From: a virus
IMG/VR virus record: IMGVR_UViG_3300042346_000326
Coordinates: 1-64,000 of that record
Reading direction: 5' to 3' (one strand)
DNA length: 64,000 nt
Shown here piece after piece: positions 12,799 through 58,234 of this stretch. The first letter of the stretch is position 1; each line of letters opens with the position of its first letter. Both the position numbers and the translations under genes were made by a program. Below the pieces are notes generated by a model that ran no database searches, had not been told where the DNA came from, and worked only from the letters and a program-made list of their open reading frames with translations.

Positions 12799-14046
12799 AT
12801 GGCAGCAGACAATGAACACCGTCTGGTCAGTAAAGTAATACGTGACCGTGACATTGTTCCTGCACTTTCACGTGGCGTTCAAGACGCATGGTTCTTAGAT
12901 GACGACAATCGCAAAGTCTGGTCATTTGTTCGCAAGCACTACAGTGAATACCGCGAAGTACCTACAGCAACAACTGTAAAAGACCACTATCCAAATTATA
13001 AAGTTTTAGATGTTCAAGATAGCGTTGAGTATCTGCTTGACACGATGGTCGACTTCCGTCGTCGACTTCTCACTCGTCAAGGTCTTGAAAATGCTGTTGA
13101 ACTATTGCAAGACAACAATCACAATGCCGCGTTGCTTGCTATGGAGCAGGCAATTGCAAAAGTCAATGAGCAGGGTGTTCTCGGCACTCATGAAGTTGAC
13201 CTATCTAAGAACACAGAACAGCGCTATGAAGATTACAAAGCGTTACAGAGTAAGAAGTTTTTAGGGATTCCTACTGGTTTTGAAAAGATAGATGAAGCAA
13301 CTGCAGGACTACAGGGTGGTCAGTTGATAACCATCATTGCTCCACCAAAGACTGGTAAGTCACAAATTGCTCTACAGATAGCGATAAATGTTCACAAACT
13401 TGGTTATGTTCCAATGTTCCAGTCATTTGAGATGAACAACCATGAGCAACAACAGCGTCACGATGCTATGAGAGCAAATATATCCCATGGTCGTTTACGT
13501 CGCGGAAAGTTATTGCCAGCAGAAGAAAGCCGTTACATCGACATGCTCAACAATATGGAGAAGTTGCACCCATTTCACCTTGTTGATGCTGTAAATGGAA
13601 TTACCGTATCTGCCTTGTCAGCAAAAATTGAGCAGTGTAATCCTGATATCGTATTTGTAGATGGTGTTTATCTTATGCTTGATGAGATTACTGGCGAGAT
13701 GAACACTCCGCAAGCAATAACAAATATCACCCGTGCATTAAAGCGCCTTGCTCAAAAGATAAATAAACCAATTGTTATAACTACTCAGACTCTGTTATGG
13801 AAGATGCGTGCTGGAAAAGTAACCGCAGACTCTATTGGATACTCATCATCTTTCTTCCAAGATTCAGACGTCATCCTTGGTCTTGAGCCAGTTGAAGAAG
13901 ATGAAGAGATTCGCCTCTTAAAGATTGTTCAATCACGTAACTGCCCACCAAGTGAGACTGCTATTACATGGCGTTGGGAGACTGGTTGTTTCCACGATGA
14001 AGCAGTTATGACTAAGTGTTCTTACTGTATGAATTGGTCCAAGTAA
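12799..14046 (+). CDS. dnaB: Replicative DNA helicase, DnaB-like
   Basis: 415 residues with a gagggggcgac ribosome site. The N-terminal 110 residues are helical, like a DnaB N-domain. The RecA-like core starts at IPTGFEKIDEATAGLQGG, with Walker A APPKTGKS, then FQSFEMNN, Walker B PDIVFVDGVYLM, and PIVITTQTLLWK as a motif 4-like element. This hexameric helicase would unwind the phage fork with the loader (11340) and primase (14046). Somewhat short for DnaB, which is usual for phage versions. Confidence 0.85.
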   Translation: MAADNEHRLVSKVIRDRDIVPALSRGVQDAWFLDDDNRKVWSFVRKHYSEYREVPTATTVKDHYPNYKVLDVQDSVEYLLDTMVDFRRRLLTRQGLENAVELLQDNNHNAALLAMEQAIAKVNEQGVLGTHEVDLSKNTEQRYEDYKALQSKKFLGIPTGFEKIDEATAGLQGGQLITIIAPPKTGKSQIALQIAINVHKLGYVPMFQSFEMNNHEQQQRHDAMRANISHGRLRRGKLLPAEESRYIDMLNNMEKLHPFHLVDAVNGITVSALSAKIEQCNPDIVFVDGVYLMLDEITGEMNTPQAITNITRALKRLAQKINKPIVITTQTLLWKMRAGKVTADSIGYSSSFFQDSDVILGLEPVEEDEEIRLLKIVQSRNCPPSETAITWRWETGCFHDEAVMTKCSYCMNWSK

Positions 14047-14993
14047 TGGATGTAGAAAAAGTACTTCTTGCACTTGACTTACCACTTGCTGCACAACGTG
14101 GCAGTGAAGTTAATGGGTTGTGTCCAATGCACAAGAAGAGAACTGGAAAAGAAGACCATCATCCATCGTGGTGGATAAATATTGATACAGGTGCACATAT
14201 TTGTTTCTCTTGTGGTTACAAGGGAAACCTCTACACACTTGTTCGTGATTTAAAGTCAGTTGATTATCATGAAGCAAAAGAGTTCATTGATGGTCAAGCA
14301 GAACTTCCAATCGATGCTTTACTTAGTCGAATTAAAGACCTACCACAGTACATACAGCCCGAAGAAGAGCCAATAAGTATGTCTGAGGCTCGTCTTGCTG
14401 TGTACTCTGACCCTCCAGCATTTGAATTAAAAAAGCGATTCCTAACTGCAGAAGCAGCAAAGCACCACGGCGTACTTTGGGATGTAAATAACGTTGCATG
14501 GATTCTTCCTATCCGCCATTCCGAAACTTATGAACTTATGGGATGGCAAGAAAAGGGTGCTTCGGGTCGCTTTTTTCGCAATCAACCAGTGGGCGTTAAG
14601 AAATCAAAAACTATATTTGGCGTTGAAGTGATGGCTACCGATATTTTGGTTGTTGTTGAATCTCCTTTAGATGTCGTTCGTCTTCGTTGTGCAGGTGTTG
14701 AAGGAGCAGTGTCAACTTTTGGCGCCATTGTTAGTGAAGACCAAGCAAAGATTATGCGCAGAGCAGAAAAAGTTATTGCAGCGTTTGATAAAGACGAAGC
14801 AGGTCGCAAGGCTTGCGAATCTATGCGCCCATTTGCTCGCAAGTATGGGATTAACCTTTTCTTTTTTGATTACACGGATATCGATGTCAAAGACCCAGGA
14901 GATATGACCATCGATGAAATTCACAGGGGTATAGAGAACTCCAAAACATACATTCTTGGCAAGGAGGCATACAGTGTTTACGGGAACGCTTAA
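14046..14993 (+). CDS. DNA primase, zinc-ribbon plus Toprim
   Basis: 315 residues from ATG 14046 (TAATG overlap with the helicase); an in-frame GTG at 14016 would sit inside the helicase gene. The N-terminal zinc site is CPMH ... CFSC (a CHC2-type ribbon). Toprim motifs are VVVESPLDVVRL, carrying the catalytic Glu, and IAAFDKDEAG, carrying the Asp pair. This is the DnaG-type primase partner of the helicase directly upstream. No helicase-binding C-terminal domain is obvious. Confidence 0.85.
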   Translation: MDVEKVLLALDLPLAAQRGSEVNGLCPMHKKRTGKEDHHPSWWINIDTGAHICFSCGYKGNLYTLVRDLKSVDYHEAKEFIDGQAELPIDALLSRIKDLPQYIQPEEEPISMSEARLAVYSDPPAFELKKRFLTAEAAKHHGVLWDVNNVAWILPIRHSETYELMGWQEKGASGRFFRNQPVGVKKSKTIFGVEVMATDILVVVESPLDVVRLRCAGVEGAVSTFGAIVSEDQAKIMRRAEKVIAAFDKDEAGRKACESMRPFARKYGINLFFFDYTDIDVKDPGDMTIDEIHRGIENSKTYILGKEAYSVYGNA

Positions 14994-16542
14994 GCCATAT
15001 CAAGTCGAGGCTGTTAGCCGTATGGTTGGTGAAAAGAAAATGTTGGTTGCGTATGAGATGGGTCTAGGTAAAACCTGTATGACTATTGCGGCCTTAGAAA
15101 AATTGAACGATACAGGACAGATACAGAAAGGTCCTATTCTTGTAATAGCCCTCTCTAGCCTCAAGTATCAGTGGCAGAAAGAGATAGCCAAATTTACTAA
15201 AGGTGTAGAGACCACCGTTGTGGACGGTAACAAGCAACAGCGAACACAGCAGTACGAAGACGGACAAAAGAGCGATTACGTCATAACCAACTATGAGTCA
15301 ATAGTTAACGACTGGGAGACAGTTCGTAGATACTTTTGGGGAGCCGTCGTCTGCGATGAGGCTACTGCTATCAAAGGTTTTCGTTCCAAGCGTTCCAAAA
15401 AGGTAAAAGACTTGTCTAAAAATATATCCATCAGGTTTGCTCTTACTGGAACTCCTATTGAGAACGGTAAACCAGAAGAGTTATATAGCATTATGCAGTT
15501 CGTTAATCCCAATCTTTTAGGTCGTTTTGATTTGTTTGACCAAACCTTTATTGTGCGCAATCACTTTGGAGGTGTGCAGCGATATAGGAATCTACCTATA
15601 TTTCACGAGAAGATGAAAATTTCTTCTGTAAGAAAGATACAGACAGACCCAGATGTTGCTCCGTATCTTCCAAGCGTCATTTATCGTGAGCCAATACTTG
15701 TGCGGTTTGATTCTGCTGGTCAAAAGTTATACAACTTTATAGCCGAAGAATTACACAACGAATTAGTTGAAGCACAACAACTTCTTGGAGCAGGGTTTTC
15801 GTTAGCAGCACACTATGGAGAGGGGTATAAACCAGGAAGTCCTGCAGATATGATGCGTGGTTCAATCATGTCCAAGATAACCGCACTTCGTATGGTTTGT
15901 GATGACCCAATGATTCTTGCAAGCAGTGGTTCAAATTATGATGGTAAAACTGGAAGCGCTTATGCAAACTATTTGTGGACTAACGGTCATATAAAAGTTC
16001 GTGGAATGGGCAATCCAAAACTTGACACATTAAAACAATATGTAAACGACCATTTAGAGACTGACCCCGATGCAAAGGTTGTTGTGTTTACTTCTTACCT
16101 TGGAGCAGTGGCAGCCATTCACAGTGAACTTGGTGGAACTGTGTATACAGGAGAAATGAACTCTAAAGAAAAAGAAAAAAGCAAAGAAAAGTTTTTAAAT
16201 AACCCAGATTGCAGAATCTTTATTTCGTCCGATGCTGGTGGTTACGGAGTAGATTTACCTAATGCAAACCTTTTAATTAACTATGACTTGCCATGGAACG
16301 CTGGACTTGCGGTACAAAGAAACGGCCGAATTAAAAGAGCGTCCAGCCGTTGGCCTACCATTACTATTCAAGACATCCTAATGAAGGGTTCTATAGAAGA
16401 ACGCCAGTTCGACATGCTCCAACAGAAGAACGCCGTGGCTGACGCTGTAATGGACGGTCAGGGAATCAACTCTCGTGGTGGTGTAGACTTGACAGTAGGA
16501 AGTCTTTTGAACTTCATATCTCAGACCAAAGTAGGAGGGTAA
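14974..16542 (+). CDS. SNF2/SF2-type DNA helicase
   Basis: 522 residues. The start is GTG 14974, because aaggagg lies at 14961-14967 with ideal spacing; an in-frame TTG at 14956 precedes that site. Motif I is EMGLGKT (residues 28-34), motif II is CDEAT, motif III is LTGTPIENG, motifs V and VI are SDAGGYGVDLPNANLLI and QRNGRIKR. This matches phage SNF2-like translocases of the DNA replication region. Overlaps the primase 3' end by 20 bases. Confidence 0.9.
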   Translation: MFTGTLKPYQVEAVSRMVGEKKMLVAYEMGLGKTCMTIAALEKLNDTGQIQKGPILVIALSSLKYQWQKEIAKFTKGVETTVVDGNKQQRTQQYEDGQKSDYVITNYESIVNDWETVRRYFWGAVVCDEATAIKGFRSKRSKKVKDLSKNISIRFALTGTPIENGKPEELYSIMQFVNPNLLGRFDLFDQTFIVRNHFGGVQRYRNLPIFHEKMKISSVRKIQTDPDVAPYLPSVIYREPILVRFDSAGQKLYNFIAEELHNELVEAQQLLGAGFSLAAHYGEGYKPGSPADMMRGSIMSKITALRMVCDDPMILASSGSNYDGKTGSAYANYLWTNGHIKVRGMGNPKLDTLKQYVNDHLETDPDAKVVVFTSYLGAVAAIHSELGGTVYTGEMNSKEKEKSKEKFLNNPDCRIFISSDAGGYGVDLPNANLLINYDLPWNAGLAVQRNGRIKRASSRWPTITIQDILMKGSIEERQFDMLQQKNAVADAVMDGQGINSRGGVDLTVGSLLNFISQTKVGG

Positions 16543-18232: not shown

Positions 18233-20236
18233 ATGAATATCATTACAACACAAGAACAACTTAACGACTTAGTTAAGTACTACAGCAAACAGCCTGCATT
18301 TGCATTTGACATTGAGTCTGTTGGTGACGACCGTATACAGCCTGTAGTAAATGACGTGCTATGGATTTCTTTAGCGACAGATGGTCGCGTTGATGTTATA
18401 CCTATGGGACATCCTAATGGTGAGTTCTTAAACTGGGATAAAGAGTTGCTTCTTAGTGGTCAGCGCAAGTTAGCCGCTGGCAAAGACTTAAAAGACACGG
18501 ATTACTCAAAGAATCAAGCAAAGTGGAAACCAGTATTTGGTCCTGCTCCAGAACAACTTCTTCCTGGAGACGTATTCAAAGCATTACAGCCTCTGTTTTT
18601 TAGTGATAAGTTAAAGATTGGTCACAATATAAAGTTTGATTTAAAATCTATTGCAAAGTATTACCGTGGCAAAGTTCCTAACAAACCGTTCTTTGACACA
18701 ATGATGGCTTCATTTATTATTAACAACCGTCACCGTGGATTTCTTGGATTAGCAGACTGTGCAAAGAGAGAACTTGGTTTAGTAGTTGAAAAAGGTGTAG
18801 GAGCGCAAGTTGAGGTCCATTCGTTTAGCGATGTGGCTAAGTACTCAGGATTAGACGCAGATGCAACTTGGCAGTTATATAAGGTCTTAGAACCAAAACT
18901 GGAGGGCGACCTTAAGCGCGTTTGGATTTTAGAGATGGATGTTATTGCAGCGTTATGCGACATGGAATTAACAGGTGCAAACATAGACGTTGTAGAACTT
19001 ACAAGTTTGAAGAAGCGTCTTGAAAAAGACATTGATAATGCCAAAGCAAAGGCTTGGAAGTTAGTTGGAAAGCCCTTCGCCATGAACTCTGTTCAAGAGA
19101 AGCAGAAGTTGCTGTTCTCTCCTAAAAAAGATGGTGGACGAGGCATCAAACCAAACCTTCGTATCAAGGTTGCTCTTACAGCCAAAGGTCAAGAAATGGC
19201 GATGACTAACCCTATGAAGTTAGATATTCAGCACTACTCGGTATCTTCTGATGCTCTTGAGTTTTACAGAAGCAAAGATGAACTTGTAGATGCCATCCTT
19301 GAATATCAAGATTTGAATAAGTTAATGACAACTTATGTAATGCCATATCTTGGTGGCGAAGTTACCCACACGGTTATGGGCAAAACGAAGGTTACTGAAA
19401 AGAAATCTCTCTTAATAAATGGCAAAGTACACACTAACTTCAAACCACATGGAGCAGAGACAGGTCGTTTCTCTAGTAGCGACCCAAACCTACAGAATAT
19501 TCCTAGTGGTGGTGACTATGGAAAACTCATCCGTAATCTATTTATCGCTCCACCAGGTCATAAGTTAGTCGTAGCAGACTATTCTCAGATTGAGCCACGC
19601 ATCATTGCAGCCTTTTCTGGTGACCCAATTATGGTCAATAACTACCTTAAAGGTGGAGATATCTATACAACTATTGGTGACACGATGGGCGTAGACCGAA
19701 AGGCTGGAAAGGTTCTCGTGCTTTCTATCGCTTATGGTGTTGGTCCAGAAAAGATTGCTCAAAGCATTGGCTGTACGGTCAAAGATGCACGAGACTTACT
19801 AGACAGATTTGGAAAACAATTCAACGATATCTCCAAATATAGAGCACGAGTTATCCGTATGGCTGCTGCCCAGTCACCAACACCCTATGTGTCTACCTTG
19901 TTTGGACGACGTCGATATATACCTGACTTGAAAAGCCGTGACCAAGGTCTAAAGTCACGAGCAGAAAGACAAGCATTTAATACCGTAATTCAGGGCTCTG
20001 CTGCCGACATCATGAAATTGGCTATTGTCAGAGCACACTCCTGCTTTGTTGATGAGCCAGGCGCAAATGTCATTTTGACCGTGCACGACGAGTTAGTTAC
20101 AGTTGCTCGTGAAGATTTAGCGGACGATGTTGCGGAAGCAATCCGCGAGTCTATGGAGGGTATTCGCCTTCCTGAGATTACGTTTCCGCTTATTGCAGAT
20201 GTAAAAATAGTTGAGAAATGGGGTCAGGCCAAATGA
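18233..20236 (+). CDS. polA: DNA polymerase I (family A) with 3'-5' exonuclease
   Basis: 667 residues. The exonuclease domain shows FAFDIESVG (Exo I), GHNIKFDLKS (Exo II) and YSGLDADATW (Exo III). The polymerase domain has GRFSSSDPNLQNIP, motif A DYSQIEPR (Asp449), the O-helix RKAGKVLVLSIAYG and motif C VHDELV (Asp619). In the O-helix, the residue equivalent to E. coli Phe762 is Leu497. Motif A has Pro where E. coli has Leu. There is no 5' nuclease domain. It replicates the phage genome with the helicase-primase set upstream. Confidence 0.95.
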   Translation: MNIITTQEQLNDLVKYYSKQPAFAFDIESVGDDRIQPVVNDVLWISLATDGRVDVIPMGHPNGEFLNWDKELLLSGQRKLAAGKDLKDTDYSKNQAKWKPVFGPAPEQLLPGDVFKALQPLFFSDKLKIGHNIKFDLKSIAKYYRGKVPNKPFFDTMMASFIINNRHRGFLGLADCAKRELGLVVEKGVGAQVEVHSFSDVAKYSGLDADATWQLYKVLEPKLEGDLKRVWILEMDVIAALCDMELTGANIDVVELTSLKKRLEKDIDNAKAKAWKLVGKPFAMNSVQEKQKLLFSPKKDGGRGIKPNLRIKVALTAKGQEMAMTNPMKLDIQHYSVSSDALEFYRSKDELVDAILEYQDLNKLMTTYVMPYLGGEVTHTVMGKTKVTEKKSLLINGKVHTNFKPHGAETGRFSSSDPNLQNIPSGGDYGKLIRNLFIAPPGHKLVVADYSQIEPRIIAAFSGDPIMVNNYLKGGDIYTTIGDTMGVDRKAGKVLVLSIAYGVGPEKIAQSIGCTVKDARDLLDRFGKQFNDISKYRARVIRMAAAQSPTPYVSTLFGRRRYIPDLKSRDQGLKSRAERQAFNTVIQGSAADIMKLAIVRAHSCFVDEPGANVILTVHDELVTVAREDLADDVAEAIRESMEGIRLPEITFPLIADVKIVEKWGQAK

Positions 20237-20613
20237 GTAACGCAAACTGGTGGGCTAATAAATTAGGACAACAACCTGCGCAACAACAACGCCCAGCAAA
20301 TATGCCAACACCACCATCTCAACAACCAATGACTCCATATGTGCCCCCACAACCACAATCACACACCGCAGTATCTAAAGCACAGAGTGCTAATCAAACT
20401 CAACTATGTCCTGATTGCGGCTCTAATAATTACATGTCTGTTGCTAATGCAGCGCCTCGTTGTTACGACTGTGGCTATCCTCTTCAACAGGCTGGAAGCA
20501 AGTATGGTGCACTAACTGGTGCAAAAGTAGAAGGAAGTGCAAAGAATGCTCGCGGTAATGACACAGCAAATAATTTTAACCCACAACAAATTATTGGAAG
20601 GATTGATGGATGA
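20233..20613 (+). CDS. Zinc-ribbon protein with disordered Pro/Gln N-terminus
   Basis: 126 residues from ATG 20233, in an ATGA overlap with the polymerase stop; the in-frame ATG at 20218 would need a longer overlap. Residues 12-60 are Gln/Pro-rich and likely disordered. A zinc ribbon follows: CPDCGSNNY and CYDCGYPL. It is coupled to polA and recA, so it may bind a replication protein or nucleic acid. Function unknown. Confidence 0.65.
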   Translation: MSNANWWANKLGQQPAQQQRPANMPTPPSQQPMTPYVPPQPQSHTAVSKAQSANQTQLCPDCGSNNYMSVANAAPRCYDCGYPLQQAGSKYGALTGAKVEGSAKNARGNDTANNFNPQQIIGRIDG

Positions 20614-21656
20614 TAACTGATGAAGCCAAAAAAATCGTTGCCCAACTTAATAAAAAATTTGGTGATGGGGTTGTTGTATTTGCCAGTGATATTCGTGCTG
20701 ACCTTGTACCTAGGTTTACCAGTGGTTCTACAACTCTTGACTATGTTTTGGGTGGGGGTTTTCCTGGTAACCAGTGGAACGAATTAATTGGAGAACCATC
20801 TCACGGAAAAACAGCAGTTGCATTAAAAGCAATTGCTGCAAATCAATTAAAAGACCCTAACTTCACAACAGTCTGGGTTGCAGCAGAGGCTTGGGTTCCT
20901 GATTATGCAAAAATGTGTGGGGTAGATACCAGTAGAGTTATCGTTGTAGAAACCAGCGTTATGGAAGAGGCTTACGACGCCGTCATTGCATTTGCTGAGT
21001 CAAAGTCTGTTGACGCTATTGTTATAGACTCTCTTCCAGCCCTATCTCCTTCTCCTGAGTTAGAAAAAAATATGGATGAAATGACTGTTGGTAAGGGTGC
21101 TTTATTAACTAACAAATTTTTCCGTGTTGTTGGTACTGCAATGAAGCGCAGTCTTGTAGAAGCAGAACGTCCAGTTCTTGGAATCGTGATAAATCAATAC
21201 CGTATGAAGATTGGCGTGATGCACGGAGACCCACGCACAACTCCTGGTGGAGAGGGAAAGAATTATGCATTTTTCACTCGATGTGAAATCCGTAGAGATG
21301 AATGGATTGAACTTGGTTCGGGTAACAATAAAGTCAGAATTGGGCAAAGAATCAAGGTTAGGACTCTTAAAAATAAAACGGCGCCCCCACAGAGAGTCGC
21401 ATACTTTGACTTTTACTTCTCAGAAGGCGGCCCTTGCCTTCCTGGAGAATATGATTTCGCTAAAGAAATCGCGTCTCTCGCAGTAGTTAAGGGATTAATA
21501 GAACGAAAAGGTGGGTGGTATTACTATGGCGAAAGAAAGTGGCAGGGGATTGAACCCGTCATTGATAGCCTCCGTAGCGAGATTGACTTCAAGGAAGAAC
21601 TTGAAAAGGCTGTCCTTGAGTCAGCCGACTCCATTGTGGTAGGTGATGATGAGTAA
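20610..21656 (+). CDS. recA: RecA/UvsX-like recombinase
   Basis: 348 residues, ATGA overlap. The core has LDYVLGGGFPGNQWNELIG and Walker A GEPSHGKT (residues 61-68), Walker B VDAIVIDSLPALSP, and a VLGIVINQYRMKIG loop region before GGEGKNYAF, as in RecA L2. It would promote strand exchange and recombination-dependent replication. Two resolvase-like genes lie downstream at 21881 and 24938. Confidence 0.85.
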   Translation: MITDEAKKIVAQLNKKFGDGVVVFASDIRADLVPRFTSGSTTLDYVLGGGFPGNQWNELIGEPSHGKTAVALKAIAANQLKDPNFTTVWVAAEAWVPDYAKMCGVDTSRVIVVETSVMEEAYDAVIAFAESKSVDAIVIDSLPALSPSPELEKNMDEMTVGKGALLTNKFFRVVGTAMKRSLVEAERPVLGIVINQYRMKIGVMHGDPRTTPGGEGKNYAFFTRCEIRRDEWIELGSGNNKVRIGQRIKVRTLKNKTAPPQRVAYFDFYFSEGGPCLPGEYDFAKEIASLAVVKGLIERKGGWYYYGERKWQGIEPVIDSLRSEIDFKEELEKAVLESADSIVVGDDE

Positions 21657-22201: not shown

Positions 22202-22519
22202 ATGGATGAACCAGAGTACGCTTGGCGATATCGAGCCCGATGCTCAGGAGAAGACACCGACATCTTCTACCCGCCAAGAGATAAGAATCAATACAAAATT
22301 ATCGCTAGTCAAGCGAAATCGTTTTGTTTTGGTGAAAGTGGAAAGAACCACTGTCCAGTTCGAGCAGAATGCTTATGGGACGCGGTATCACGAGACGAAC
22401 CACACGGAATTTGGGGAGGTCTCTCTCACAGAGAAAGAAACGCTTTGATGCGTAAGTGGCAAAAAAAGTACAAAAAGAAAATGACCCTAAAAGAATTTAT
22501 ATTCAGTAAGGAAATCTAA
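22202..22519 (+). CDS. WhiB-family regulator with atypical cysteine spacing
   Basis: 105 residues. Cys14, Cys42, Cys51 and Cys57 together with GIWGGLSHRER form a WhiB-type iron-sulfur protein, a family restricted to actinobacteria and their phages. The central spacing is C-x8-C-x5-C (CFGESGKNHCPVRAEC) instead of the canonical C-x2-C-x5-C. The Lys/Arg-rich tail (KWQKKYKKKM) could contact DNA. WhiB proteins modify transcription through the main sigma factor. Another WhiB with normal spacing is at 41613. Confidence 0.85.
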   Translation: MDEPEYAWRYRARCSGEDTDIFYPPRDKNQYKIIASQAKSFCFGESGKNHCPVRAECLWDAVSRDEPHGIWGGLSHRERNALMRKWQKKYKKKMTLKEFIFSKEI

Positions 22520-23367
22520 TGCCAGTTCAAAACTCGTGGGAACTAAAGCGATTCCTTGATGCCAAAAAGACTGAGACACGTCTTATGGGTGATGTTGAAC
22601 GTCATCTTATGCGCAGACCAGAATCAGACCGTCGAACAGATGTTCTACACCCTTCTGAAATAATTAAATCAGATTGGTGCCACAGGTATGCCTTCTATCT
22701 TTTAAAGGGAGGAAAGAAACAGCAAGAAAAGCCATCTCTACGACTTCAGAACATCTTTGACGAAGGTCACGCTATTCATGCAAAGTGGCAGACTCGATTT
22801 TACGAGATGGGCAATCTTTATGGAAAATTTAACTGTATCTATTGTAAAAATGTAACTTTTGGATTGTCTCCACAGGAGTGCGAAACCTGCGGCTGCGATG
22901 TATTGGAGTATGGAGAAGTATCTCTAAGAGATGAGCCTCTCCGTATTGCTGGTCATACAGATGGCTGGATAAAGAACCTTGGAGAAGATTGCCTTATAGA
23001 AATCAAGTCTATTGGTGCTGGAACCTTGAGGTATGAGGCTCCAGAACTTCTTATGGATGCAAACCACGATGTGACCAAGGCGTGGAAGAATATACGTAGA
23101 CCTTTTCGTGGACACCTAATGCAAGGGCAGATGTATTTGGAACTTGCCAAGCGTATGTATGGAGATGAAGCGCCTAATGAAATAGTTTTTATTTACGAAC
23201 TTAAGGCAGACCAGGATTACAAAGAATTCACGGTAAAAGCAAACTTTGAAATAGTTGAAAGAGTTTTTAATGCAGCCCAAAAGGTAGTGAATGCTGTAGC
23301 GGCTGATAAGATGCCTGAGTGCAATGTTTCAGAGGACGGGTGTAAGCAATGCGACTTGATTCCATAG
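22519..23367 (+). CDS. Cas4/RecB-like exonuclease with zinc-ribbon insertion
   Basis: 282 residues. PD-(D/E)XK motifs: GHTDGW (Asp148), LIEIKS (Glu161, Lys163) and GHLMQGQMYLEL (the QxxxY-type motif). Cys54 plus the C-terminal Cys268, Cys275 and Cys278 match the 4Fe-4S arrangement of Cas4/AddB nucleases. Between them, CIYC and CETCGC (Cys106-126) form an inserted zinc ribbon. No cas1 or cas2 is present, so a role in recombination end-processing with RecA is more likely than CRISPR adaptation. Confidence 0.8.
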   Translation: MPVQNSWELKRFLDAKKTETRLMGDVERHLMRRPESDRRTDVLHPSEIIKSDWCHRYAFYLLKGGKKQQEKPSLRLQNIFDEGHAIHAKWQTRFYEMGNLYGKFNCIYCKNVTFGLSPQECETCGCDVLEYGEVSLRDEPLRIAGHTDGWIKNLGEDCLIEIKSIGAGTLRYEAPELLMDANHDVTKAWKNIRRPFRGHLMQGQMYLELAKRMYGDEAPNEIVFIYELKADQDYKEFTVKANFEIVERVFNAAQKVVNAVAADKMPECNVSEDGCKQCDLIP

Positions 23368-23795
23368 ACCCATCAGCGTTAGTTACAAAACCAACTTACG
23401 CATTAACTCCACTGCCACCAGATATCACCTCATTGAGCAGTGAGCAACTGGCTGAGTTGTTTACGATTCTTACTGGATGGGCTGATTACACTGCATCACA
23501 ACTTGCAGAGGCTCAGTTAGATGAAAGAGCCGCTCAAAGAAAATTCGATTTAAAGGTTAATCGCCTTACGGTTGAGAAAATGGGCAATGCTACAAAAGGT
23601 GACAAAGTGACCCTTATCAAGGCTCAGATTGCCATTGATGACGAGGTTATACGATTGGAAGAAGAGTTTGAAGAGCGGTATGCTCGGAGAAAGATTCTAG
23701 AGATGATGCTCAATAATCAAGAACGAGACATCACGCTAGTTTCAAGAGAAATAACTCGTAGAACGGCTGGAGGGCCAAGGAGGGAATACGTATGA
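23349..23795 (+). CDS. Hypothetical coiled-coil protein
   Basis: 148 residues, overlapping the nuclease by 19 bases. A helical, charged region (residues 45-140) is probably coiled coil; no catalytic motif is visible. Its position suggests a recombination accessory protein, but this is only context. Confidence 0.6.
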   Translation: MRLDSIDPSALVTKPTYALTPLPPDITSLSSEQLAELFTILTGWADYTASQLAEAQLDERAAQRKFDLKVNRLTVEKMGNATKGDKVTLIKAQIAIDDEVIRLEEEFEERYARRKILEMMLNNQERDITLVSREITRRTAGGPRREYV

Positions 23796-24676
23796 AAAAG
23801 TTATTAGTAATCGTTTTATTGCTGGCAGGATTGTCTGCACCAGCACAAGCAAGCACACCAACAGTTGCAATTATTGATGTCGGGTTTAATACCTCGTTAT
23901 TTGCAAACAACGTTGTCTATGAAGTTTGTATCGTATCTGTAGCGGCATGTCCAAATGGAACACGCTTTCAGGAAGGTGCGGGAGCAGCCACTGTTGCTGC
24001 TAATTCATTGCCAGCATTTGCTCATGGAACTAACATGCTTTCAATTCTGACATCAGTAAACCCAGATGCAAAAGTTGTGTTGGTTCGTGTTCTTGGATTA
24101 AGTGCAAACGGCAGAGCAGGAACATATTCAATTGATGATGTAACTGCTGCGTTGAAGTGGGTTGTAAATAATTACTCTAAACTCAATATCAAAGCAGTAA
24201 GTATCTCTCAAGGAAAAGTCAATGGTGCTTGCAGAGCAACTTTTGATTTAGTTAACAGCGTTAAAACTTTGACTGCTGCTAATGTGGCGGTAATTGCATC
24301 TACTGGTAATGAAAAGAATCGAACTAATATGGCTGTTCCTGCTTGTATTGACGAAGCCATTTCTGTAGGTGCTACTGACAATCCTGAAGTTAGCAATACT
24401 GGCAAGGGTTGGGATGTATCGGCTTCACCAACAGTTGCTTTGTACAGCAATGGGAATGCATCAACAGATTTTTACACTAATGGTCGTTTCTTTTACACCG
24501 CTATGAATGGGACACGTCAGTTCTCTGTTGGAACTTCAAACGCAACAGCAGCCTTTGCGGGTTGGTGGATGGATAATTTGCGCCCAACAATTGCTGAGAC
24601 TTATTCTTTATTCTCAGCAACTGCTACCACTACATCTAATCAATGGTTAACAGGAAGGTATGTATTTATTCCATGA
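23792..24676 (+). CDS. Secreted subtilisin-like serine protease (S8)
   Basis: 294 residues, ATGA overlap. A clear signal peptide starts the protein (MKKLLVIVLLLAGLSAPAQA). The catalytic triad is visible: Asp in VAIIDVGFN, His in FAHGTNM, Ser in GTSNATAAFAG; the oxyanion Asn is in IASTGNEK. There is no propeptide longer than a few residues. The active site looks intact. Its target is unknown: possible roles are shedding of surface proteins during release, cleavage of competitors, or action in lysogens. An exported protease inside a replication operon is unusual. Confidence 0.85.
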   Translation: MKKLLVIVLLLAGLSAPAQASTPTVAIIDVGFNTSLFANNVVYEVCIVSVAACPNGTRFQEGAGAATVAANSLPAFAHGTNMLSILTSVNPDAKVVLVRVLGLSANGRAGTYSIDDVTAALKWVVNNYSKLNIKAVSISQGKVNGACRATFDLVNSVKTLTAANVAVIASTGNEKNRTNMAVPACIDEAISVGATDNPEVSNTGKGWDVSASPTVALYSNGNASTDFYTNGRFFYTAMNGTRQFSVGTSNATAAFAGWWMDNLRPTIAETYSLFSATATTTSNQWLTGRYVFIP

Positions 24677-24957
24677 GTGACCCAATTTTGCCCGAAGCAC
24701 ATCAACTCATTAACAATGATAGGAATGAGTCCTATGACCATCCCTTAGATAACTTCAACAGAATAAAAAAAGGATGGGAAGTTATCTTTGGTTTTAAAGT
24801 TAGTGAAGAGCAAGTTGGCCTTGCTATGGCATGGGTAAAGATTGCACGGGAAGCCTACAGACATAAGAGGGATAATCTGGTAGACGGCGCTGGTTATCTT
24901 GGAACTGTAGACATGGTCATTACTGAAAGAGAACGCCGTGCCAACAAAAACGTTTGA
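24673..24957 (+). CDS. Conserved phage protein, DUF6378-like
   Basis: 94 residues from ATG 24673, in an ATGA overlap with the protease gene (an earlier ATG at 24643 lies inside it). The pattern EAHQLINNDRNESYDHPLDN, then VGLAMAWVKIAREAYR and DNLVDGAGY, is a recurrent phage family that I recall as DUF6378, whose helices resemble all-alpha NTP pyrophosphohydrolases. No activity can be assigned. Confidence 0.6.
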   Translation: MSDPILPEAHQLINNDRNESYDHPLDNFNRIKKGWEVIFGFKVSEEQVGLAMAWVKIAREAYRHKRDNLVDGAGYLGTVDMVITERERRANKNV

Positions 24958-25516
24958 TGGCAATTTAAATGAGGGCGAACCAGTATCAATAGGGATTGAC
25001 CAATCTCTTACTGGTTTCGCCTTCACTGCTCTTGCAACACCTAACCCAAATCAATATCACACATGGGTATACAAATCTCCATATTTTGGAATAGAGCGTC
25101 TTGTAGATATACGGCAATTTTTATTTGACCATTTTGACTACATATCTGAAAAGCACGAAATTCAAGACATTGCAATGGAAGGCACAGTTCTTGCCAGTCA
25201 TTCCGCTCTTGTACTGGGTGAGTTATCTGCCCTTGTAAAACTTACTGTCTACGATTATTTTGACAATAACACTAGATTTCCCTTGATGGTTCCTCCTATG
25301 ACCTTGAAGAAATACGCAGCAGGTAAAGGAAACGCCAAAAAACAAGAGATGCTCCTACAGATGTACAAGAGATGGGGCATAGAGTTTAATGATGATAACG
25401 CTGCAGATTCATATGCTTTGGCTAGATTGGCAGCAGGCATCTACAAAGACAAGGTAGAGCAGGCTGTAGTTGAGCAAATAAAAGACCCTAAATACAGAGA
25501 CCAAGCAAGACTTTAG
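24938..25516 (+). CDS. RuvC-like Holliday junction resolvase
   Basis: 192 residues, GTG start. The RNase H-fold catalytic acids are present: Asp21 in IGIDQSLTG, Glu81 in IAMEGTV, and Asp151/Asp152/Asp156 in NDDNAADSYAL. A TLKKYAAGKGNAKK loop matches the RuvC DNA-binding segment. It would resolve recombination intermediates made by RecA. It is the last gene of the tightly packed replication block. Confidence 0.8.
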   Translation: MPTKTFDGNLNEGEPVSIGIDQSLTGFAFTALATPNPNQYHTWVYKSPYFGIERLVDIRQFLFDHFDYISEKHEIQDIAMEGTVLASHSALVLGELSALVKLTVYDYFDNNTRFPLMVPPMTLKKYAAGKGNAKKQEMLLQMYKRWGIEFNDDNAADSYALARLAAGIYKDKVEQAVVEQIKDPKYRDQARL

Positions 25517-38745: not shown

Positions 38746-39321
38746 TTAGTTCTTGCCTTTGCCTTTTGCTATTGCTTTGGCTTTTGGCTTGGTATCAGGG
38801 AACTTTGCTATCCATTCTTGGGTTCTAGCGGTCATTCCCTTCCACGCACTCCAATTCTCGCCCCCATTGCTCATGTGATAAGCAATCTGAGCGTTTACCA
38901 CAGGGTTTAGCAGTTCGGCATTGGAATCCAATCCAAACTTCGCTCTTCTGTCTGCACCCAACTCTCCTAGCATGTTTATCTGAAACAAGCCGTATGAGTT
39001 GTCGCCTGTTGAGGCGTTCCCATTATGTGCGAGCGGTCTACCCGATGATTCTTTCTTCGCAACTGCCCATGCTTCTCGTAGGTCTTGCCCTTCGAACCCA
39101 ACTGCTTTCAGTAGGGCTACTAGTTCTAGGTCACTCAACTTGTGAGAGTTCTCGAACTTGGCAAGCAACTTGTCGCTGGACTCTTGCTCGACTTGGGCTT
39201 CCAACGCCTCTGCCTTTGTGGGGCTAAACGCTGGAGTGATTCTCCCTACTCCGAATGTTCCTGAAAGGAACGCGGTAGTTAGAATCAACACTACAAGCCG
39301 ATTTTGTGTTTCTAGTTTCAT
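38746..39321 (-). CDS. Membrane-anchored lysozyme/transglycosylase-like protein
   Basis: 191 residues with ggagaactg before ATG. An N-terminal signal anchor (LVVLILTTAFLSGTFGVG) is followed by a helical linker. The domain at about residues 75-165 has AVAKKESSGRPLAHNG, with the catalytic-type Glu, and SYGLFQINML, as in SLT and Rpf-like lytic enzymes. The end is Lys/Ala-rich (KAKAIAKGKGKN). It lies downstream of int, so it may be expressed in lysogens, perhaps as a surface or exclusion factor, rather than as the main endolysin (57683). Confidence 0.7.
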   Translation of the reverse strand: MKLETQNRLVVLILTTAFLSGTFGVGRITPAFSPTKAEALEAQVEQESSDKLLAKFENSHKLSDLELVALLKAVGFEGQDLREAWAVAKKESSGRPLAHNGNASTGDNSYGLFQINMLGELGADRRAKFGLDSNAELLNPVVNAQIAYHMSNGGENWSAWKGMTARTQEWIAKFPDTKPKAKAIAKGKGKN

Positions 39322-39329
39322 CAGTTCTC

Positions 39330-40607
39330 CTAACCCAGAAAGTCATTGACAATTTCACTCGCCTTTGATTTCTGGTGTCGAACGCGGTGTAAGTAGCGTT
39401 CGGTAGTTTTTATGGATTGATGACCCAATCGCTCTTTTACTTCATGGACATCAACGCCGTTTTTAAGTAACTGCGTTGCGTTCGCATGTCGTAAGTCGTG
39501 AGTTCTTGGACTCCAACCCATGCCTGATTTGGCTATTGCTTTGTTCCAAATGGTTCTCCATGTATCTCGTGGCAGGTGACTCGGTTCGTCAAGTATGACT
39601 TCACCCTTTTGGTATGACTTTGCTCTTTGCGACCTTCGATACTCTCGAACTATCGCTTTACAATCGTCACACCTACAAGACCCACTTGCGTAAGCCCTGA
39701 GCGTGCCATGTTGGAACAGTTTTCCGTCTTTCACGAATGGTCGTAAAGACTTTGCTGTGCCACGAGAATCTTTAATTTTACCTTTTGGTATGACTTTGCT
39801 TCTCTCAAAGACTAACTCTTCTTTTGCTATTCGATTTGCCCTGACAAACGCCTTTATCTCTAGTAACAGGGCTTCGGGCAATACAACTGAACGCTTGTAA
39901 CCTGACTTAGTGGCATCTACGACTAAGAATCTACTTCCGTTATTGCGTGCTTTGCCTAACTCACTCACTCGCCTCTGTATAAAAACTTCTTTTGTATTGA
40001 AATTAAAATCTTTTAATCGAATCTCTGTGGCTTCTCCGAAGCGTGCGCCCGAAGCAACAAGGAACTTCGCAAACAACTTCGCACCCTCTGTCGGTAAGTG
40101 ACTAACAATCTTCTTGAACTCGTCAGGCTCGACCACATTGGAAATGTCCGATTTGCCTACTTTGACCTTTATGCCACGAGTCGGGTTGGTTTGGGCTATT
40201 TGCCCCTCTTGTAACCATTTGTAGAGAGAGCCTAGACACGCCTTGATTTGAGCCAGCGTTGCGCCACCGACCCCCTGAGCCTTCAATTCGCCCAAGAGTT
40301 CTCGGACTTCAAGCGTGGATACCTCAGAAACGCGTTTAGAGCCGATTTGAGGGGCTAGATACCTGCCCCAAAGGGATTCATACCCCTTCTTCGTGATAGG
40401 CAGTAATTCGGCGGTTCTAAGCCATTTTTCGGCATACTCAGAAAGGGTCAAATTAGCCCTTGAAGGGCTCTCTGAGCCCCCATTCTCCATGCGTAGGGCT
40501 TGATACCGAGCCTCACTCTCGGAAGCCCAAGTGCCAGCAGACAGGCGTTTAGAGCCCTGCCTGTAATAGCCTGTGAAGCGTGAGCCACGCCTGACCACAT
40601 ACGCCAC
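39330..40607 (-). CDS. int: Tyrosine-type integrase with inserted Cys-rich module
   Basis: 425 residues, GTG start with gaggggg upstream. An N-terminal arm-binding-like domain (YVVRRGSRFTGYYRQGSKR), a core-binding domain (50-150) and the catalytic domain: Arg189 in SGARFGEA, Lys234, His370 and Arg373 in HDLRHANAT, His396 in LGHQS, Tyr405 in TTERYLH. Between the Lys and His-x-x-Arg motifs there is an extra segment of about 65 residues (270-335) with a Cys-rich core HGTLRAYASGSCRCDDC. That module is bracketed by two 19-bp repeats. The active site is complete. Confidence 0.95.
   Translation of the reverse strand: MAYVVRRGSRFTGYYRQGSKRLSAGTWASESEARYQALRMENGGSESPSRANLTLSEYAEKWLRTAELLPITKKGYESLWGRYLAPQIGSKRVSEVSTLEVRELLGELKAQGVGGATLAQIKACLGSLYKWLQEGQIAQTNPTRGIKVKVGKSDISNVVEPDEFKKIVSHLPTEGAKLFAKFLVASGARFGEATEIRLKDFNFNTKEVFIQRRVSELGKARNNGSRFLVVDATKSGYKRSVVLPEALLLEIKAFVRANRIAKEELVFERSKVIPKGKIKDSRGTAKSLRPFVKDGKLFQHGTLRAYASGSCRCDDCKAIVREYRRSQRAKSYQKGEVILDEPSHLPRDTWRTIWNKAIAKSGMGWSPRTHDLRHANATQLLKNGVDVHEVKERLGHQSIKTTERYLHRVRHQKSKASEIVNDFLG
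39606..39624 (+). repeat. 19-bp direct repeat, copy B (in integrase)
   Basis: Identical to the copy at 38697. On the coding strand it begins at the third codon position and encodes the end of the inserted module (RAKSYQKG). Confidence 0.8.
39782..39800 (+). repeat. 19-bp direct repeat, copy C (in integrase)
   Basis: Identical to copy B, 176 bases away, but read in another frame: it starts on a codon boundary and encodes SKVIPK at the beginning of the inserted module. Confidence 0.8.
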
Positions 40608-53101: not shown

Positions 53102-53604
53102 TGAGTAACCTAGGTCGCCAGTGGAAACAGGACCCACTCATCATGACGCCAAAAGAATTAGAAGGCCATGTTCAAGATACTCTAAAGTCAAATCCATTTA
53201 AAACAACTACAGAGAGAATTACAGATAACCCACATGGCGCTTGCTATGACGCTTCCTGTTTAATTCATGGCTATCTGCCACATGGCTCACACGTCGCTGT
53301 CTATGGTGGAAAGCACCACGACCCAAAGTCTACAAATCCAGGAGACTGGTACAGCAATCACTTTGTACATCACGTACCTACTACAGAGGGTATGCACGCT
53401 GTTGATTTGACGCATCGTCAATTTGATTCATCAGAGAAGACTCCCCTAGTAGAGCCACTACAGAAGTTTCAAGATAGAAACGTAATGAAGGGCTTTAGAA
53501 CTCTGCGCACTGATGCAGAGCACGCAAAGTTATACACAGAGGGTAGAAAGACCAAGCCTCTAGGTAAGAAGATGGCTAGAGAATTGCGCAGGGATGTCAC
53601 ATGA
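53101..53604 (+). CDS. Papain-like/transglutaminase-like cysteine protein
   Basis: 167 residues, ATG 53101 with gaggag (two GTG codons just upstream are alternatives). HGACYDASCLIHGYLPHG gives a nucleophile-like Cys48, WYSNHFVHHV His87, and HAVDLTHRQFD Asp102, in the C-H-D order of papain-like deamidases, proteases and transglutaminases. Such folds are frequent in effectors. Not proven active. Confidence 0.55.
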   Translation: MSNLGRQWKQDPLIMTPKELEGHVQDTLKSNPFKTTTERITDNPHGACYDASCLIHGYLPHGSHVAVYGGKHHDPKSTNPGDWYSNHFVHHVPTTEGMHAVDLTHRQFDSSEKTPLVEPLQKFQDRNVMKGFRTLRTDAEHAKLYTEGRKTKPLGKKMARELRRDVT

Positions 53605-53882
53605 GTGCATCAGATAACCTATCAAGCCAATTGTTTCATGGAACAAGGGCAAAGATAAAGGGACAGATAATTAACCCAGGTCCATCTGGATTTGCGTATG
53701 CAACAACTGACAGAGGTTCTGCAGAATTATTCGGCAAAACAAAGATGCCAGAAGGTGAACTAGGAGATAACAAGGTCTATCGCGTTATGTCATTAGGAGA
53801 AACGACTACCAAGCCAGGTAACTTTAAGGGTGAGACTCACCACATCTCCGACACTGGCTTCTTGATATTAGGTGAAGCATGA
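53601..53882 (+). CDS. ADP-ribosyltransferase-like protein (Arr type)
   Basis: 93 residues, ATGA overlap. LFHGTRAKIKGQIINPG, then FAYATTDRGSAELFG and KVYRVM match the short Arr (rifampin ADP-ribosyltransferase) type: His13 in HGT, Tyr33 in AYATT, and Asp84 as possible third residue. NAD-binding of this fold would modify a host target. Shorter than Arr (about 140). Confidence 0.55.
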   Translation: MSASDNLSSQLFHGTRAKIKGQIINPGPSGFAYATTDRGSAELFGKTKMPEGELGDNKVYRVMSLGETTTKPGNFKGETHHISDTGFLILGEA

Positions 53883-54307
53883 GCGCCCTATCTAACGAGT
53901 TATTTTTTGAAGCACATCGCGGACTTCGTCTAAAGGGCAAAGAAAAAGTTAATAAAGACGAATTAGGTATGCACTGGTCTGCAGATAGAGATAAAGCAGA
54001 TGAGTTTGCAACAAAGCACATAAATTGGCCTGAGTGGGAACATGGCAAGACTTATCATGCCCAGATACCTGTATCTGCTGTAGAGACTGGATTCACTCGT
54101 CTACGTGACAGTGGCTTCGCTAACTTTGCTGGTAAAGACCCATTAGGTGAAAAGGAAGTGCCAGTAAAAGAGGGCGCTACAGTAAAGGTCACAGGCGTTA
54201 CTAGCCATCGTAGAACATACCTAGGACCTAACAAGACCGTTAATCAGGGAACGGCATTGAAGTCACGTACCCGTCGTTACAACCCACCAAGAGAGATGAA
54301 GGCATGA
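53879..54307 (+). CDS. ADP-ribosyltransferase-like protein (R-S-E type)
   Basis: 142 residues, ATGA overlap. Arg14 in AHRGLR, Ser34 in MHWSADRDKADEFA and the pair Glu91-Lys-Glu93 before VKEGATVKVTGVT reproduce the R-S-ExE signature of arginine-specific ADP-ribosyltransferases. Phages use such enzymes to modify RNA polymerase or ribosomes (T4 Alt/Mod, ModB). Target here unknown. Confidence 0.65.
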   Translation: MSALSNELFFEAHRGLRLKGKEKVNKDELGMHWSADRDKADEFATKHINWPEWEHGKTYHAQIPVSAVETGFTRLRDSGFANFAGKDPLGEKEVPVKEGATVKVTGVTSHRRTYLGPNKTVNQGTALKSRTRRYNPPREMKA

Positions 54308-54489
54308 CTTGTCGTCATGTCTATGAATATGTTGGGGCGGCAATATGTCCCGCGTGCGGGCGCGATACGCACGAACCAGACACCGAACTTCATAACAAGT
54401 TGTTCAAAGAGCATTACGAGCAGGGCCGTCATCTGGTATACAAGTGTCCTGTAGAGGGCGGCACTATACGAGGTTGGTGGAGCATATGA
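54304..54489 (+). CDS. Small zinc-binding protein
   Basis: 61 residues, ATGA overlap. CRHVYEYVGAAICPACGRD, and a later Cys in YKCPVEGG; four Cys plus His could bind zinc. A similar short CRH..C..C protein is at 58278 on the other strand. Confidence 0.6.
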   Translation: MTCRHVYEYVGAAICPACGRDTHEPDTELHNKLFKEHYEQGRHLVYKCPVEGGTIRGWWSI

Positions 54490-54917
54490 GTGCACCTTTA
54501 TCTGAACCGTTGTTTCATGGTTCAAGCCATCCCTTTAACAAGGGCGACATTATTAAGCCTATGGAGATGGACCACGCACATGCCACAACAGATAAGGCAT
54601 ATGCCAATAACTACTCGACATTAGATGCAGAACGAGATTACAGTAGAGACCCAAAGTCTTTATTTACATATACCTACAAAGTCAGTCCTGTAGATGAAAA
54701 AGAGATGCACTCAGAGACAGAACCGTGGAGAACTGACCCAGTTAAAAAGAACCTACGTCTTGCTAAAGACATTCCTAATATCTATGTGTCCAAAAAAGGA
54801 TTTAAAGTAGAGGGCATCGAGTCAATGAGGGCGCACCCACAGATAGTTACAGATAACAAGGTTCTAGAGAACGCTCTGAGCGCTTGGAGACGAAAACGTG
54901 ACAGAGAAGAGTCCTAA
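54486..54917 (+). CDS. ADP-ribosyltransferase-like protein (Arr-like, degenerate)
   Basis: 143 residues from ATG 54486. LFHGSSHPFNKGDIIKPMEM, then HAHATTDKAYANNYS and FTYTYKVSP follow the order seen in the 53601 protein; the AYATT Tyr is replaced by His (HAHATT). Either a divergent Arr-type enzyme or an inactive relative. Confidence 0.5.
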   Translation: MSAPLSEPLFHGSSHPFNKGDIIKPMEMDHAHATTDKAYANNYSTLDAERDYSRDPKSLFTYTYKVSPVDEKEMHSETEPWRTDPVKKNLRLAKDIPNIYVSKKGFKVEGIESMRAHPQIVTDNKVLENALSAWRRKRDREES

Positions 54918-55041: not shown

Positions 55042-55099
55042 GCTCAAACCCAAGTTGACCCCTTTGGTATCCTTGGGTACTGGAGGCGAAGGGGAGACC

Positions 55100-55651
55100 A
55101 TGACAACAATCATTGGAGTTCAGTACGAAGACCACTGCCTATTTATGGCAGATAATCAAGTTACATTAGATGGTGGTCGTCGTTACAAACACCCCGATAT
55201 GAAAAAGATTAGCAAGGTAGGCGAATACCTTGTTGCAGGTTCTGGCGAAGTTGCACCATGCGATATTGCGCAACATCTATGGACGCCACCTGCTATGTCT
55301 GCCAAAGACAGAAAAGATACTTATCACTTTGTTATTGCTAAGTTGATGCCATCGCTACGCAAATGTCTTGAAGACAATGGCTACGATTTCGATGAAGGCA
55401 AATCTGACGGCAAGTCAGGTGAATCACGATTCAATCTGCTTGTTGCCGCTAATGGTCAGATATTCGACATTGCCGATGATATGTCGGTCTGTATGTCAGA
55501 TGCTGGCTTCTATGGCGTTGGCTCTGGCTCTCCATATGCATTAGGTGCTCTCTATGGTGGTGTTAAGCCAGAAAAGGCTATGGCTGTTGCTGAGAAGATA
55601 GATGTCAATACTTCTGGGCCGTTTCAGAAAGAAGTTCAGTACAAGAAGTAA
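55100..55651 (+). CDS. Proteasome-beta/HslV-like Ntn hydrolase
   Basis: 183 residues from ATG 55100, with ggggagacc upstream; the longer frame from 55055 would bury the key Thr. The start MTTIIGVQYEDHCLFMADNQ places Thr2 first after Met removal, with Asp17 and a Lys (KK at 34-35, mature numbering) as in proteasome beta subunits. VAGSGEV and GSGSPYALGALYGG are further proteasome/HslV-type elements. Actinobacteria have proteasomes, so this may form its own barrel or join the host's. Confidence 0.75.
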   Translation: MTTIIGVQYEDHCLFMADNQVTLDGGRRYKHPDMKKISKVGEYLVAGSGEVAPCDIAQHLWTPPAMSAKDRKDTYHFVIAKLMPSLRKCLEDNGYDFDEGKSDGKSGESRFNLLVAANGQIFDIADDMSVCMSDAGFYGVGSGSPYALGALYGGVKPEKAMAVAEKIDVNTSGPFQKEVQYKK

Positions 55652-57280: not shown

Positions 57281-57683
57281 AGAACGCTTATCACCACAAG
57301 ACCTAGACGCTAGATTAAAGTTTATTTTAGGAATCACACTAGGAACAATTCTTCTATGCACATCATTAGGCATTCTTTACGGCCTCCTATTTGTGACACA
57401 GCCAATAGGTGCTCAGTCTGAGAACGACAAGATGTTCTTTAACGTTCTAGGAAGCGTAGCAACGTTTATCACAGGTACCCTGGCTGGTCTTCTTATTGGT
57501 CAGAGCGGTGCCAAAGATGTCATGAAAGCAGTTCAAGACAATAAAGAAATTGATGCCAAGAATACAAGAGAAGACAAGAAATTAGAAGCAGAGATTGATG
57601 CTACAGCAGCACGTCTAGCAGCAAAGCCAGATGGCGCAATGCCAGAGGAACAGCCTGTTGATACAGATTGGGACAAAGACTAA
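57273..57683 (+). CDS. Two-span membrane protein, holin candidate
   Basis: 136 residues. Two spans (FILGITLGTILLCTSLGILY; FNVLGSVATFITGTLAGLLI) and a charged C-terminal helix (ARLAAKPDGAMPEEQP). Directly before the endolysin in a TAATG overlap, so it is a candidate holin, although the sequence is not family-specific. Confidence 0.6.
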   Translation: MSKERLSPQDLDARLKFILGITLGTILLCTSLGILYGLLFVTQPIGAQSENDKMFFNVLGSVATFITGTLAGLLIGQSGAKDVMKAVQDNKEIDAKNTREDKKLEAEIDATAARLAAKPDGAMPEEQPVDTDWDKD

Positions 57684-58234
57684 TGGCAGACCAAGGAACA
57701 GCAGCACGCCTTATTGAAGTTGCTAAAGCAGAAATTGGCGTTATCGAAGGACCAAAAGATAATGAGACTAAGTACGGTGCTTATACTAAAGCCAACTTCC
57801 AACCATGGTGTGGTTCTTTTGTTATGTGGTGTGGCAACGAGGCTGGAGTAAAGATTCCTAACACTGTATACACACCAAGTGGAGCAGCGGCATTTAAGAA
57901 GGCTGGTGCATGGATTGACGGAGATGTTGCAGACCCAGAACCAGGAGATATAGCCTATTTTGATTTCCCATCAGATGGCGTCGATAGGATTTCTCACGTA
58001 GGTATTGTTATTAAAGACAATGAAGATGGCACTGTTTGGTGTATCGAAGGCAACACATCTTCTAAGAAGTCTGGAAGTCAAAGAAATGGTGGAGAGGTCT
58101 GCAAACAACTTCGGGCCTATAAGAAGAACAAGGCTAACGTAATGATTTCAATTGTTGGTTTTGGTCGTCCAAAGTTTAAAAAGACAGCAGAAAAAACTGA
58201 ATCTTCTACCAAGTGTCCTACTTGCGGTAAGTAA
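57683..58234 (+). CDS. CHAP-domain endolysin
   Basis: 183 residues from ATG 57683 (TTG 57668 is an alternative). LIEVAKAEIGVIEGPKDN, FQPWCGSFVMWCGNEAGV with the Cys nucleophile, ISHVGIVIKD with the His, and IEGNTSSKKSGSQRNGG form a CHAP amidase/endopeptidase. The tail ends KCPTCGK, a possible zinc knuckle. It would cut peptidoglycan at lysis. No signal peptide, so a holin is needed. Confidence 0.85.
   Translation: MADQGTAARLIEVAKAEIGVIEGPKDNETKYGAYTKANFQPWCGSFVMWCGNEAGVKIPNTVYTPSGAAAFKKAGAWIDGDVADPEPGDIAYFDFPSDGVDRISHVGIVIKDNEDGTVWCIEGNTSSKKSGSQRNGGEVCKQLRAYKKNKANVMISIVGFGRPKFKKTAEKTESSTKCPTCGK

Follow-up and report, generated by a model that had tools for sequence, protein, structure and literature searches.

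The gene studied here lies within a window of 64,000 nucleotides, the whole stretch of DNA that was analysed, which forms part of a 97,380-base IMG/VR virus record; the remaining 33 kb of this record was searched for the subtilase only. A replication and recombination region in the window encodes DNA polymerase A, a RecA/UvsX recombinase, a Holliday-junction resolvase (HJR), a WhiB-like regulator and a Cas4-like exonuclease (Table 1). The presence of the WhiB-like gene indicates that the virus is an actinophage. Within this region, the subtilase gene is preceded by the exonuclease gene and G148 and followed by DUF6378 and a RuvC-like resolvase gene, in agreement with a preliminary description that placed the protease in the replication operon. 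DUF6378 alternates with a dNMP kinase in the next slot of otherwise syntenic phages, suggesting a role for DUF6378 in nucleotide metabolism. Ribonucleotide reductase and a queuine tRNA-ribosyltransferase-like protein are encoded elsewhere in the window, as is a tyrosine integrase, and hence the phage may be temperate. Beside the integrase gene, a minus-strand gene (38746-39321) combines a signal-like N terminus with a lysozyme-like SLT_3 domain (4.2e-18). A second peptidase of the phage, an HslV/proteasome-like Ntn hydrolase, was detected at 55055-55651 (phrog_1040, 3.6e-27), and the region at 53601-54917 contains tandem open reading frames (ORFs) with similar starts (LFHGTRAK, LFFEAHRG and LFHGSSHP) that were judged alike by eye and had no Pfam or PHROG family match.

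Table 1. Features of the subtilase locus, the surrounding phage genome and related contigs (window positions unless a contig is named)
Feature	Position	Strand	Evidence or remark
DNA polymerase A	18233..20236	+	PF00476, 2e-86
RecA/UvsX recombinase	20610..21656	+	PF00154, 1.8e-48
WhiB-like regulator (actinophage marker)	22202..22519	+	PF02467, 3.9e-18
Cas4-like exonuclease	22519..23367	+	phrog_2506, 4e-35
G148, upstream neighbour, 148 aa	23349..23795	+	Function unassigned
Shine-Dalgarno sequence AAGGAGGG	23777..23784	+	Within 3' end of upstream gene; aligned in relatives
ATGA stop-start overlap with upstream gene	23792..23795	+	Left slot edge
S8 subtilase, predicted exported, prodomain-less, 294 aa	23792..24676	+	PF00082, 3.9e-12; AlphaFold2 pLDDT 90.9, pTM 0.89; Foldseek to subtilisins, 2.3e-14
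Predicted signal peptide, aa 1-20 (KK n-region, LLVIVLLLAGL core, AQA then S)	23792..23851	+	Heuristic scan; conserved features; low pLDDT over aa 1-20
Catalytic Asp29 (IIDVG)	23876..23878	+	In all copies covering the site
Catalytic His78 (HGT)	24023..24025	+	In all copies covering the site
Oxyanion-hole Asn173 (TGN)	24308..24310	+	In all copies covering the site
Nucleophile Ser249 (GTSNATA)	24536..24538	+	In all copies except the L027/L107 contig (in-frame deletion)
ATGA overlap with DUF6378 gene	24673..24676	+	Right slot edge
DUF6378, downstream neighbour	24673..24957	+	PF19905, 1.2e-18; dNMP kinase instead in many relatives (PF21448, 1.7e-15; L057:1043-1585)
RuvC-like resolvase	24938..25516	+	phrog_159, 6e-24
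Tyrosine integrase	39330-40607		PF00589, 1.5e-23
Endolysin-like gene (lysis region)	57668-58234		
SecB, signal-peptide protein in slot	L078:3036-3731, L079:1577-2224, L080:1707-2366, L106:1938-2624, L124:4305-4943, L152:3150-3785		
SecC, P/T/Q-rich signal-peptide protein in slot	L101:4329-5000, L113:2901-3461		
TPR-type protein gene, near and upstream of host subtilases	L156:7529-8401, L158:15841-16749, L159:11497-12513, L160:2284-3159, L161:2915-3847		L161 by eye

The product was matched to Peptidase_S8 with a score of 46.5 bits, above the curated Pfam cut-off of 21.8, and its ribosome-binding site was graded good/strong on sequence. A profile constructed from 31 homologues detected subtilisin-like structures in the PDB at 1e-13. 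The alignment of these homologues also served as input for an AlphaFold model, which was predicted to adopt the subtilisin alpha/beta fold of the S8 family and whose best Foldseek matches were subtilisins. The ordered Asp, His and Ser of the catalytic triad, the HGT and GTS motifs and the oxyanion-hole Asn were all present, and the catalytic residues aligned with those of S8 structures, bearing out the complete triad reported previously. One phage copy (L027:5001-5723) has lost Ser249 through an in-frame deletion, due either to natural inactivation or to an assembly error. The median dN/dS of the subtilase was 0.096, as compared to 0.090 for G148 and a lower value of 0.055 for RuvC, these ratios being approximate because dS was near saturation. 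The gene is, therefore, under purifying selection (dN/dS of ∼0.1), and its presence on many independent contigs together with this ratio indicates that it is not a chance ORF. With an intact catalytic site, the enzyme is a putative protease.

The N terminus, MKKLLVIVLLLAGLSAPAQA followed by S, resembles a Sec/signal peptidase I-type signal in a simple heuristic scan, consistent with the signal peptide noted in the preliminary description. Signal-like N termini were detected by this heuristic in only 5 of the 96 ORFs of the window, and among these the subtilase had the strongest hydrophobic core. The AxA motif and the charged start were retained in the homologues, and the protein is probably exported. 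Four cysteines (Cys 46, 53, 147 and 185) were conserved in phage and host copies, with a single substitution in a broken host fragment; this conservation would suit an extracellular protein or oxidising surroundings. Prodomains are usually needed for the folding of secreted subtilisins. No I9 prodomain was detected in the subtilase, PF00082 being the only Pfam match and the catalytic domain directly following the signal. As the first strand of the catalytic domain starts at residue 24 in the predicted model, there is no room for a classical prodomain, and assignment to the classical secreted subtilisins (S8A with an I9 prodomain) was rejected.

Subtilisin BPN' and Savinase resemble the window enzyme in fold (Foldseek, 2e-14; TM, ∼0.65 to 0.74), triad, oxyanion-hole Asn and GTS motif but share only ∼22% identity with it and differ in possessing an I9 prodomain and lacking the four conserved cysteines; once cleaved as predicted, the chain of the window enzyme, unlike that of classical subtilisins, would have only ∼8 residues ahead of the catalytic Asp. 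The mycosin MycP is also an exported actinobacterial S8 protease, but identity as a mycosin of a type VII secretion system was rejected on a TIGR03921 score of 33.2 bits against an equivalog cut-off of 278.75. Matches to the QhpE and cyanobactin (PatA) proteases were weak and far under the cut-offs, and a known anti-phage defence protein was also rejected, there being no match of the window protein to a PADLOC-DB profile.

S8 domains are encoded by other phages (PHROG 3677 'protease', BFVD A0A6J5NRV7, Bacillus phage vB_BcoS-136 and Lactococcus phage AM4), and hence the enzyme class is not new. These proteins, compared by sequence, are remote from the window subtilase (25% identity in the best BFVD match), and PHROG 3677 was matched by 19 of the 31 aligned members, the window copy not being among them. 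The nearest isolated relatives of the window exonuclease and polymerase were Streptomyces phages of the BRock/LuckySocke type (Borockvirus and kin), which share the HJR-WhiB-Cas4 exonuclease order of the window but lack a subtilase at that place; LuckySocke has SSB- and ThyX-annotated genes after the exonuclease. No close copy was found in isolated phages, where only remote matches from Acinetobacter and faecal phages were detected. The earlier statement that such a protease is rare in phage genomes thus holds for isolated phages but not for related uncultivated freshwater actinophages, in which the gene is common: it was present on ∼43 of 80 contigs, counted by hand, that were retrieved by a scan with the Cas4-like exonuclease.

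The Nanopelagicales (acI) rank with the most abundant bacteria of fresh waters. Subtilase homologues were found in 20 of 296 Nanopelagicales genomes (1e-20). A class-wide sample of 395 genomes produced two matches, both from Nanopelagicales, so that in the bacteria sampled the family was found only in this order. The chromosomal proteins (L009/VERG01000012.1, L033 to L039 and L051) are similar to the phage copies in length, signal peptide, motifs and cysteines, with 38 to 82% identity, but differ in their chromosomal location and, in several cases, in lying near a gene for a TPR protein. None of the phage copies was seen to adjoin such a gene, which is a possible operon or island partner of the subtilase in the host. 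The closest host copy, L009, had 82% amino acid and 77% nucleotide identity to the window gene and was located among chromosomal genes on a contig of a Ca. Nanopelagicaceae metagenome-assembled genome. Misbinning of a phage contig was rejected, as pyrroline-5-carboxylate reductase-like, helicase-like and phosphatase-like chromosomal genes were recognised by eye on this contig, and no recognisable prophage was seen around the L009 copy. Other host copies were also among chromosomal genes, one of them on a 1.43-Mb contig. These homologues imply that the subtilase has a function outside phage biology too.

The phylogeny with bacterial subtilases proposed in the preliminary description was performed on 57 sequences. 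Phage and host copies were interleaved; parsimony required six changes, of which no fewer than four were forced by supported branches, and L009 was nested in the phage clade of the window gene (support, 100/97). A single phage clade was rejected by the AU test (p = 8.7e-7), as was a single phage clade with L009 counted among the phages (p = 1.7e-5), indicating that more than one phage-host transfer has occurred. Only for L009 does a direction stand out, this copy being most simply read as phage derived. On this phylogeny, the gene has been exchanged repeatedly between related viruses and their bacterial hosts, a history suggesting that the exterior of infected cells is altered by the virus.

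In order to define the genomic setting, IMG/VR was scanned with the subtilase and with its neighbour genes as queries. Relatives were confirmed on 165 contigs in the family-wide scan, and 80 of these were retained. The usual location was between G148 on one side and DUF6378 or the dNMP kinase on the other. The left junction was a −4-nt overlap in 125 of 129 occupied loci, a set that includes repeat fetches of the same contigs, and the empty slot keeps the same ATGA junction. The slot was resolved for 90 distinct G148 alleles, of which 59 were followed by the subtilase and 22 by an empty slot; as the subtilase was itself the query in some scans, it is over-represented in this count. The remaining slots contained proteins designated SecB (n = 4) or SecC (n = 2), SecB directly before the subtilase (n = 2) or a 51-aa ORF (n = 1). 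Neither SecB nor SecC is related to the subtilase, but both begin with signal peptides; SecB matched a domain of larger exported Nanopelagicales proteins (L166 to L170). A tentative possibility is that freshwater Nanopelagicales actinophages reserve an ATGA-framed slot in the replication operon for export cargo. Exported proteins of host type, namely a protease, a low-complexity protein and a domain of surface proteins, would replace one another there, so that the infected cell is given a remodelled surface and competitors are kept out.

Phages that infect Nanopelagicales were not reported until 2023, when the first two were described (PMC10202952). The subtilase gene was not described in the literature searched, and the main texts consulted on Nanopelagicales and actinophages and on single-cell viruses do not mention a protease or subtilase. 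What appears to be new is the prodomain-less family common to Nanopelagicales and phages, the passage of its genes between phages and hosts, and a slot for exported proteins that is framed by ATGA overlaps.

The subtilase was also detected at ∼7 other positions in related contigs, including after polymerase A, between homologues of window 14016-14993 and 14956-16542, adjoining ribonucleotide reductase and adjoining an HNH endonuclease homologue. None of the positions found was beside structural or lysis genes. No more than one copy was present in any of 25 large related records, and 10 of the 25, which may be incomplete, had none. A single copy and absence from such records are expected of an accessory fitness gene.

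The explanation that we prefer, with confidence falling just short of even, is that the subtilase is an accessory export-cargo protease of an integrase-encoding actinophage of Nanopelagicales, which shaves the surface of the infected cell and likely blocks superinfection or re-adsorption. We infer timing, export, activity, substrate and benefit as follows. Translational coupling to replication and recombination genes would result in production early to mid infection; the product would be exported by the Sec pathway with removal of the 20-residue signal peptide, and the mature enzyme would fold without a prodomain. At the envelope of the infected cell, which has a single membrane, or beyond it, the enzyme would then work as a subtilisin-type endopeptidase, most likely shaving surface proteins of that cell, phage receptors among them. 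Other phages would be unable to superinfect, and released virions would not stick to producing cells or debris. Surface action is the most likely role for an intact, selected, accessory and predicted exported protease that is encoded in a replication operon, within a slot that takes other exported proteins; protection from superinfection is one of several functions that fit. Points against this explanation are the prediction of export by a heuristic, the missing prodomain, the possible silence in a lysogen of a gene that belongs to a lytic-type operon, and the host homologues, which imply a function beyond phages.

Nutrient scavenging would make the subtilase an exported auxiliary metabolic gene: protein outside the cell or in its wall would be digested by the exported protease, and the streamlined host would take up the peptides to supply phage synthesis with carbon, nitrogen and amino acids. 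Nanopelagicales use peptides, free-living members carry chromosomal homologues, and both the accessory distribution and the location with nucleotide and replication genes are in keeping with such a role. We consider it unlikely, however, as diffusible products in dilute lake water over one infection cycle would be of small benefit and as it leaves unexplained why the slot accepts other, unrelated exported proteins. Service to the lysogen, through a change of surface, competition or resistance to grazing or phages, would be compatible with the integrase, with the host-type nature of the gene and with the nesting of a host copy within a phage clade. Such lysogenic conversion is quite improbable, since the ATGA overlaps embed the subtilase among the replication genes, an operon that prophages normally keep switched off, and the nested host copy lies outside any recognisable prophage.

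Predicted export and a strong ribosome-binding site would also suit an aid to release, whether by making the envelope weaker at a late stage of infection or by detaching virions from surface proteins, but the gene is outside the lysis region, was not seen beside genes for lysis or structure at any position detected and is missing from many relatives, making this very unlikely. Virion processing, raised in the preliminary description, is disfavoured by the same lack of association and by a product addressed out of the cytoplasm, and a cytoplasmic maturation protease or virion component is extremely improbable despite S8-like matches in baseplate or tail fibre proteins of some phages (BFVD, Synechococcus phages), as the homologues are stand-alone domains in a replication region with signal peptides throughout and many relatives of the same gene order have no subtilase.

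Surface shaving by the subtilase is open to examination, as the gene is a testable one with natural pairs of presence and absence and one copy without the catalytic serine. That a widespread group of phages carries an exported and repeatedly exchanged protease points to remodelling of the cell surface as a battleground.
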